Source: Acidobacteriota bacterium (GTDB lineage Bacteria > Acidobacteriota > Thermoanaerobaculia > Gp7-AA8 > JAHWKK01). Taken from it: DNA of 58,586 nucleotides. Below, one piece after another: positions 62 through 37,980 of this stretch. Both the position numbers and the translations under genes were made by a program. Positions within the stretch are counted from its first letter, which is position 1, and each line of letters begins with the position of its first letter. The DNA lies in assembly GCA_019347945.1 (NCBI GenBank), contig JAHWKK010000024.1:1-58586 (forward strand). Reading direction: 5' to 3'. Below the pieces are notes generated by a model, which did no database searches, was not told the origin of the DNA, and saw only the letters and a list, made by a program, of their open reading frames with translations.

Positions 62-185
62 TCAGAAGTTATGCGTTGGACGCAGAGTCCGAGAAAGGGG
101 TCAGAATGCAGACGAGTAGGAGATCGTCGCAGGCTCGCTCAAATCGATGAAGCCGACAAAGCCGCCGAAGGCGGCGCCAGAACTT

Positions 186-260
186 AGCCCCCGGCTTCAG
201 CCGGGGGACAGAATGCGCTCGTGCTAAAAAATACCGAGCCCGCTTCAGCGGGCGACAGAA
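186..260 (+). repeat. Two REP-like palindromes with GACAGAA tail
   Basis: Two boxes in tandem: a longer one built on CCCCCGGCTTCAGCCGGGGG followed by ACAGAAT (186-214), and a shorter one, CCCGCTTCAGCGGG followed by CGACAGAA (236-260). Both share the central CTTCAG and the ACAGAA tail. The same ordered pair recurs at 37906-37980, so this is a dispersed composite unit rather than a chance hairpin. Copies of this kind can act as RNA hairpins; no function is shown here. Confidence 0.8.
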
Positions 261-287: not shown

Positions 288-336
288 TCCTGAATCCTGA
301 TCCCTGATCCCTGATCCCTGATCCCTGACCCCTGCC
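288..336 (+). repeat. C-rich heptamer array (TGATCCC units)
   Basis: About six near-identical 7-nt units of the type TGATCCC run up to 10 nt before the proposed -10 of selD. The unit gives TGA in every reading frame because 7 is not divisible by 3. No matching inverted arm lies to the left within the window, unlike most other arrays here. It is the pyrimidine-rich arm, upstream of a start codon, as in the other spacers. Confidence 0.8.
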
Positions 337-345
337 CCGCTGCGA

Positions 346-351
346 TATGAT
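346..351 (+). promoter_or_regulatory. Putative -10 (TATGAT) of a leaderless selD transcript
   Basis: TATGAT is followed by CCGGCC and then the ATG at 358, a spacing of 6 nt. There is no Shine-Dalgarno sequence. The same TANNAT-CCGGnn-ATG arrangement precedes the genes starting at 2066 (+) and 24098 (-). No convincing TTGACA-like -35 is visible. Leaderless use is inference. Confidence 0.45.
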
Positions 352-357
352 CCGGCC

Positions 358-1437
358 ATGAAGGCGAAGCTGCGGCGTCATCCGCCGCTGTCGTCGTTCG
401 CCACATCCGGAGGGTGAGCCTGCAAGCTGGGTCAGGATGACCTGCGCACGGTTCTCGCCGGATTGTCCGGCCATGAACATCCTCAGGAAGCGCTGCTGAT
501 CGGATATCACAGCTCCGACGATGCGGCTGCCCTGGAGGTCGAGGGGAGCTTCGTCCTCGTGCAGACGGTGGATTTCTTCACGCCGATCGTCGACGACCCG
601 GAAACGTTCGGCGCTATTGCAGCAGCAAACTCGATCTCGGACATCTACGCGATGGGAGCGACGCCGATTCTCGGTCTCGCAATCGCCGGGTTCCCCTCCG
701 ACGTGCTTCCGATCGAAGTGCTGCAGGCGATCTTCCGGGGTGGGATCAGGAAGGCCACGGAGGCGGGCTTTCCCGTCGCCGGTGGCCACACGATCATCGA
801 CGACGTTCCGAAATACGGGCTGGCCGTCACGGGGAGAGTCGCGAAGGACAAGCTCGTGCGCAACTCGACTGCGCGTCCCGGTGATGCGGTTTATCTCACC
901 AAGCCCATCGGGACGGGCATTCTGATCGCCGCCCATCGCTCGATGAACACGCGCCTCCGCCGGCTCTTCTCGCGAACGCTTCCGGCGCTCGACGAGGTCG
1001 TGAGCTGGATGATGCTGCTGAACAGGAGATCCTCTCAGCTGATGACGCAGATCGGCGCCACCGCGGCGACGGACGTGACCGGCTACGGGCTGGTGGGACA
1101 TCTGCGGGAGATGTGTCGTGGCGCCGGAATCGGTGTCGACGTCGACATGACGAAGGTCACGGCCATGGCTGGTGCGATCGAGCTCATCGAGGATGGTTAT
1201 CTTCCCGAAGGTACGGCTCGCAACATGGCCGAATTCCGTTCGTCGGTCGAAAATGAAGCAACCGAGTTGGACTACACGCTCGCGTGCGATGCGCAGACCA
1301 ATGGGGGCCTGCTGATCGCGGTGGCACCGGAGCAGGAACTGCACCTGGAAGGGGCGTTCGAGCGCGAGGGCCTTTACCTTGCAAAGATTGGACGTTTCAA
1401 CGACCGGAAGGAAATCATCCGGTTGCACCGCGGCTGA
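358..1437 (+). CDS. selD: Selenide, water dikinase SelD, selenocysteine-containing (UGA at 415-417)
   Basis: SelD makes selenophosphate from selenide and ATP, the selenium donor for selenocysteine and selenouridine. The frame is open from ATG 358 to TGA 1435-1437 except for one in-frame TGA at 415-417. Around it the protein reads SGG-U-ACK, aligning with the catalytic GAGCGCK of E. coli SelD: Sec20, Cys22 and Lys23 match Cys17, Cys19 and Lys20. The rest is typical: SDDAAAL, an Asn/Asp-rich AAANSISDIYAMG segment, GGHTI, and a DVTGYGLVGHL motif. At 359 residues it has the family's length, whereas starting at TTG 463 would remove the active site. A hairpin 17 nt after the TGA fits a bacterial SECIS. 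No selA, selB or selC is visible nearby. Sec reading is inference, but a strong one because both neighbouring catalytic residues are preserved. Confidence 0.92.
418..442 (+). promoter_or_regulatory. Candidate bacterial SECIS hairpin in selD
   Basis: Directly downstream of the in-frame TGA, GGTCA (430-434) pairs perfectly with TGACC (438-442) around a GGA loop. The first loop base lies 17 nt after the TGA, and the loop begins with G. Known bacterial SECIS elements have a small apical loop with an early G about 16-37 nt after the UGA, so the geometry fits. The stem is only 5 bp, plus a possible outer TGC/GCA pairing. Confidence 0.6.
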
Positions 1438-37878: not shown

Positions 37879-37980
37879 AGCCCGCGTCCGCGGGCGACAG
37901 ATCTTAGCCCCCGGCTTCAGCCGGGGGACAGGAGCTTGTTCCCAAGATCGTGTCGAGCCCGCTTCAGCGGGCGACAGAAT
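37879..37980 (+). repeat. Three REP-like palindromes with GACAG tail
   Basis: Boxes at 37879-37902 (CCCGCGTCCGCGGG, CGACAG), 37906-37931 (CCCCCGGCTTCAGCCGGGGG, ACAG) and 37955-37980 (CCCGCTTCAGCGGG, CGACAGAAT). The last two repeat the order and sequence of the pair at 186-260. The 356-nt spacer 37727-38082 holds only these and the heptamer arrays; no gene is seen. Confidence 0.82.

Follow-up and report, generated by a model that had tools for sequence, protein, structure and literature searches.

An in-frame UGA codon at the active-site position of a Thermoanaerobaculia selD gene, predicted to encode selenocysteine

Does the TGA that interrupts a selD reading frame near the beginning of a 58,586-nt stretch of Acidobacteriota DNA (the whole stretch analysed, hereafter the window) end a gene, or does it encode selenocysteine (Sec) at the active site of the enzyme? 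A preliminary description of this DNA had favoured the second answer, with the caveat that SelD selenoproteins are already known; they are indeed common and well described (PMC1794560, PMC4561486, PMC13188914). Taken together, the gene, its relatives, the rest of the genome and the RNA hairpin next to the codon indicate that the product is almost certainly a Sec-containing SelD, with a predicted Sec in place of the catalytic Cys. The features of the locus are collected in Table 1.

Table 1. Features at and around selD, with positions in the window
Feature	Position	Strand	Basis or remark
Perfect inverted repeat, 25 nt	37-61 / 236-260		Core TTCTGTCGCCCGCTGAAGCGGGC
Acido-Lenti-1 RNA match	160-207	-	43.3 bits
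Short tandem CCTGATC-type repeats	289-337		Just 5' of the selD promoter
Probable -10 box TATGAT	346-351	+	6 nt before the start codon; TANNNT in 25/25 genes
selD, Sec-containing selenide, water dikinase (predicted)	358-1437	+	359 aa, Sec at codon 20; matches to TIGR00476 and 3u0o
Start codon ATG of selD (placed by comparison)	358-360	+	Conserved N-terminus, starts of relatives, -10 box
UGA codon for predicted Sec20 (= Cys17 of E. coli SelD)	415-417	+	Aligned codon TGA or TGC/TGT in 110/110 loci
bSECIS hairpin (predicted)	428-444	+	Within published limits; codons invariant in UGA-type genes
Hairpin stem GGTCA / TGACC	430-434 / 438-442	+
Hairpin loop GGA	435-437	+
Closing TGA of selD	1435-1437	+
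Second copy of the repeat, with another Acido-Lenti-1 match	37879-37979

The selD frame across the order and class

When the internal TGA was translated as Sec (entered as C), the product matched the family models TIGR00476 (359 bits against a cut-off of 125, residues 11-326) and NF002098 (319 bits, cut-off 299), as well as the solved SelD 3u0o (E 3e-65, residues 11-346), which we take to be the E. coli enzyme. The two proteins are homologous over nearly their full length and share the Lys of a G-x-C-K context: K23 falls on Lys20, A-C-K follows codon 20 directly, and codon 20 falls on Cys17, so that E. coli SelD differs in having Cys where Sec is predicted here. This alignment bears out the position that the preliminary description had assigned to the TGA. 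Its claim of a missed start also held, as TTG 463 is the first start after the TGA in a mechanical list of open reading frames, and a protein beginning there loses the residues equivalent to C17 and K20. Across the order, residues encoded before the UGA (SSFAT and GG among them) are retained despite variation at the third positions of their codons, indicating that the codons upstream of the UGA are translated.

The two best named relatives were an Acidobacteria gp7 MAG and a Thermoanaerobaculia MAG. Across 110 alignable homologous loci (a set that includes our own and a few near-duplicates between two collections), the Sec codon position held TGA in 56, TGC or TGT in 54, and nothing else. Within the order, TGA was found in 18 of the 19 selD genes sampled (our own included) and TGC in the remaining one, from genome G074; the same TGA thus recurs, in frames that are otherwise open, in 17 of 18 other genomes. 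SelA matched in all 19 sampled genomes of the order (the match in G046 was partial), and class-wide we found a SelD-like match in 141 and a SelA match in 139 of 148 genomes. Two Cys-type genes, L111 in G074 and L119 in G019 (another family of the class), have relaxed hairpin codons in genomes that still contain SelA, and are probable Sec-to-Cys changes. As of 2006, no selenoproteins were more widespread than FdhA and SelD, and both showed conversions of Sec to Cys (PMC1794560).

Selenocysteine machinery and a second predicted selenoprotein

The genome that contains the window (3.72 Mb, 49 contigs, 99.65% complete) was searched for the components of Sec decoding, as the preliminary description had proposed, and the search was positive. 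It encodes one copy each of selD, selA (453 bits against a cut-off of 268) and selB (355 bits, cut-off 242, with the model covered from 1 to 578 of 581). A single tRNA-Sec (selC) exceeded the Rfam threshold (68.9 bits), and ARAGORN called the same tRNA as tRNA-SeC with a TCA (UCA) anticodon.

An alpha subunit of the formate dehydrogenase-N (FDH-N) type was identified in the genome by TIGR01553 (949 bits, cut-off 814) and NF041513 (1532 bits, cut-off 1400). Its sole internal TGA lies within NQARI-U-HSST, the known Sec site, and is followed by a bSECIS hairpin of textbook form (GGTGCCC-GGTCT-GGGCACC) whose loop lies 18 nt downstream of the UGA. This is an independent second gene with the sequence hallmarks of a selenoprotein. 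The AhpD-like family (PF02627) had no in-frame TGA. We found no tRNA-2-selenouridine synthase (TIGR03167) in the genome, leaving Sec as the only SelD-dependent use found in a search that covered the genes for Sec and for 2-selenouridine. Overall, this gene content supports the proposal that UGA is decoded as Sec, and the genome is predicted to do so in at least two selenoprotein genes. No relative carried an ordinary stop at the SelD site, and neither selA, selB nor selC was missing, the two observations that would have spoken against the proposal.

A candidate bSECIS hairpin and the rival readings

The hairpin noted in the preliminary description, with five base pairs and a G-starting loop, is present as described, and its apical loop starts 17 nt after the UGA. 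Additional wobble pairs at 429-443 and 428-444 bring the count to seven pairs (five without wobble). Published limits for a bSECIS are a loop of 3-9 nt, a stem of 4-16 bp, a G in the first two loop positions, a distance of 16-37 nt from the UGA and an MFE of at most -7.5 kcal/mol (PMC13188914). The selD hairpin falls within every one of them, with an MFE of -8.6 kcal/mol for a 23-nt piece. A 44-nt stretch folded with z = -1.8 relative to dinucleotide shuffles. Taken on its own sequence, the hairpin lies within chance, as 28% of synonymous recodings score as well, and we rejected it as a stand-alone statistical signal (p = 0.28).

Comparison between genes gave a different kind of evidence. Among the 110 loci, bSECIS-type hairpins matched by no more than 5% of recodings occurred in 45% of UGA genes versus 2% of Cys genes. 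Codons 25-28 read GGT-CAG-GAT-GAC in each of the order's 18 sampled UGA-type genes, in which GGT and GAT make up only 19% and 38% of the codons for their respective residues. Averaged over 128 invariant residues, codon identity was 0.68; only 10 codon columns were frozen, and four of these are the consecutive hairpin codons. In the Cys genes the same codons read GGG-CAG-GAC-GAT (G074) and GGA-CAG-TTC-GAC (G019). The pair formed by alignment columns 18-26 is present in every UGA row, and the rows of these two Cys genes are the only ones without it. Such freezing of codons in UGA genes, with relaxation in Cys relatives, amounts to a natural test of selection on the hairpin, and in these alignments the codon-level conservation of the predicted hairpin is not a product of chance. 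No compensatory (two-sided) base changes occurred in 19 distinct rows, where the core pairs are almost invariant; the case for the structure is therefore built on the frozen codons and their release, not on covariation.

These data bear on other readings of the TGA. Were UGA read as Cys or Trp here, by means of a suppressor tRNA or an altered genetic code, the locus would have parallels, since UGA reassignment exists elsewhere; such a reading is nevertheless highly improbable given a complete Sec pathway in the genome, a selD gene that itself closes with TGA (as the FDH frame appears to), and frozen hairpin codons that it would leave unexplained. That the TGA is an ordinary stop, with the real protein starting at TTG 463 or later and lacking the active-site Cys or Sec, agrees with the first mechanical start. 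Against this, the pre-TGA codons are conserved as protein throughout the order while their third positions are free, the TGA is exchanged only for Cys codons, and the enzyme would have to do without its C17 and K20 equivalents; we regard this reading as extremely improbable. A single base converts a Cys codon to a stop, so an error in sequencing or decay of the gene could in principle have given the same picture in this assembly; the recurrence of the TGA in otherwise open frames of nearly all sampled genomes of the order refutes this explanation, whose probability is practically negligible. Sec at codon 20 is thus the reading we adopt.

A probable leaderless start and comparison with known systems

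ATG 358 was placed by the conserved N-terminus, the starts of relatives and the -10 box. In the relatives, selD begins with ATG or GTG at this position or next to it, the UGA lying 16-20 codons further on. All 25 genes compared (our own included) have a TANNNT box upstream of the selD start, at a distance of 6 nt in 17 genes, 7 nt in 7 and 8 nt in 1; none of the other offsets between 0 and 19 nt showed it. The position of the box supports ATG 358 on grounds that do not depend on protein similarity. Among the genes with upstream sequence, a Shine-Dalgarno-like motif was flagged in L111 only. Such a box some 12 nt ahead of the start codon, with no Shine-Dalgarno sequence, is the published signature of leaderless genes in bacteria, which were reported to make up 9.7-19.4% of the genes in each of three genomes of Acidobacteria (PMC3160421). 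Given a box in every gene compared and almost none with a Shine-Dalgarno motif, the selD mRNA is probably leaderless. Boxes 6-7 nt upstream were also seen at starts 2066, 5379 and 7471 (minus) of the window, which suggests that in this genome leaderless genes are no rarity. The conserved box is an aid to placing starts in the class. Short repeats similar to those just 5' of the promoter precede selD in some relatives (L103, L110).

We propose the following sequence of events. Transcription would probably start at or beside the ATG, yielding an mRNA without a leader, on which the ribosome would soon meet the UGA at codon 20. SelB carrying Sec-tRNA(Sec) would then bind the hairpin, and Sec would be inserted at the catalytic-cysteine position. 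The resulting SelD would make selenophosphate, which SelA would use to form Sec-tRNA(Sec); SelD would accordingly be needed for its own synthesis. If selD is leaderless throughout the class, its UGA coming after 16-20 codons and its bSECIS falling within the first 90 nt, Sec recoding would take place close to initiation, and selenium supply could gate the expression of the single selD copy in a self-limiting or self-starting loop. We consider this extension unlikely.

The locus resembles bacterial Sec-SelD (TIGR00476; 2yye/2zod) closely: the family and the Sec/Cys site are the same, a bSECIS lies just 3' of the codon, and SelA, SelB and tRNA-Sec are present. The solved relative 2yye/2zod is presumably the Aquifex protein. 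Nothing substantial sets our gene apart, although its hairpin is short (five Watson-Crick pairs, 3-nt loop), its loop spacing is near the lower limit and its mRNA looks leaderless. In a published reference set, 19% of the SelD genes detected were of the Sec type, with Sec at one constant position, and structure-based screening picked up their bSECIS (PMC4561486). Against that background the present case is a textbook one. In the literature library searched, no paper named Thermoanaerobaculia together with selenocysteine. The value of the locus lies in repairing a gene call that deletes the active site, in the natural experiment that the U/C contrast offers, and in the probable leaderless start.

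NifS-SPS fusions are known (PMC4561486), and one occurs in another family of the class, where L124 (319-2526) encodes a NifS-like cysteine desulfurase fused to a Cys-type SelD (735 aa). In that family, long Cys-type and UGA-type SelD occur together in G011, G023, G055 and G059. Such fusions share the SelD domain with its T-H-G-x-G-C-A-C-K motif and differ from our gene in their length (about 735 aa) and Cys codon; they are absent from the genome of the window.

Upstream of selD, the inverted repeat listed in Table 1 flanks the Acido-Lenti-1 RNA match, and the same repeat accompanies a further match far downstream. This recurrence suggests that Acido-Lenti-1 is here part of a dispersed REP/MITE-like element and not a stand-alone sRNA.
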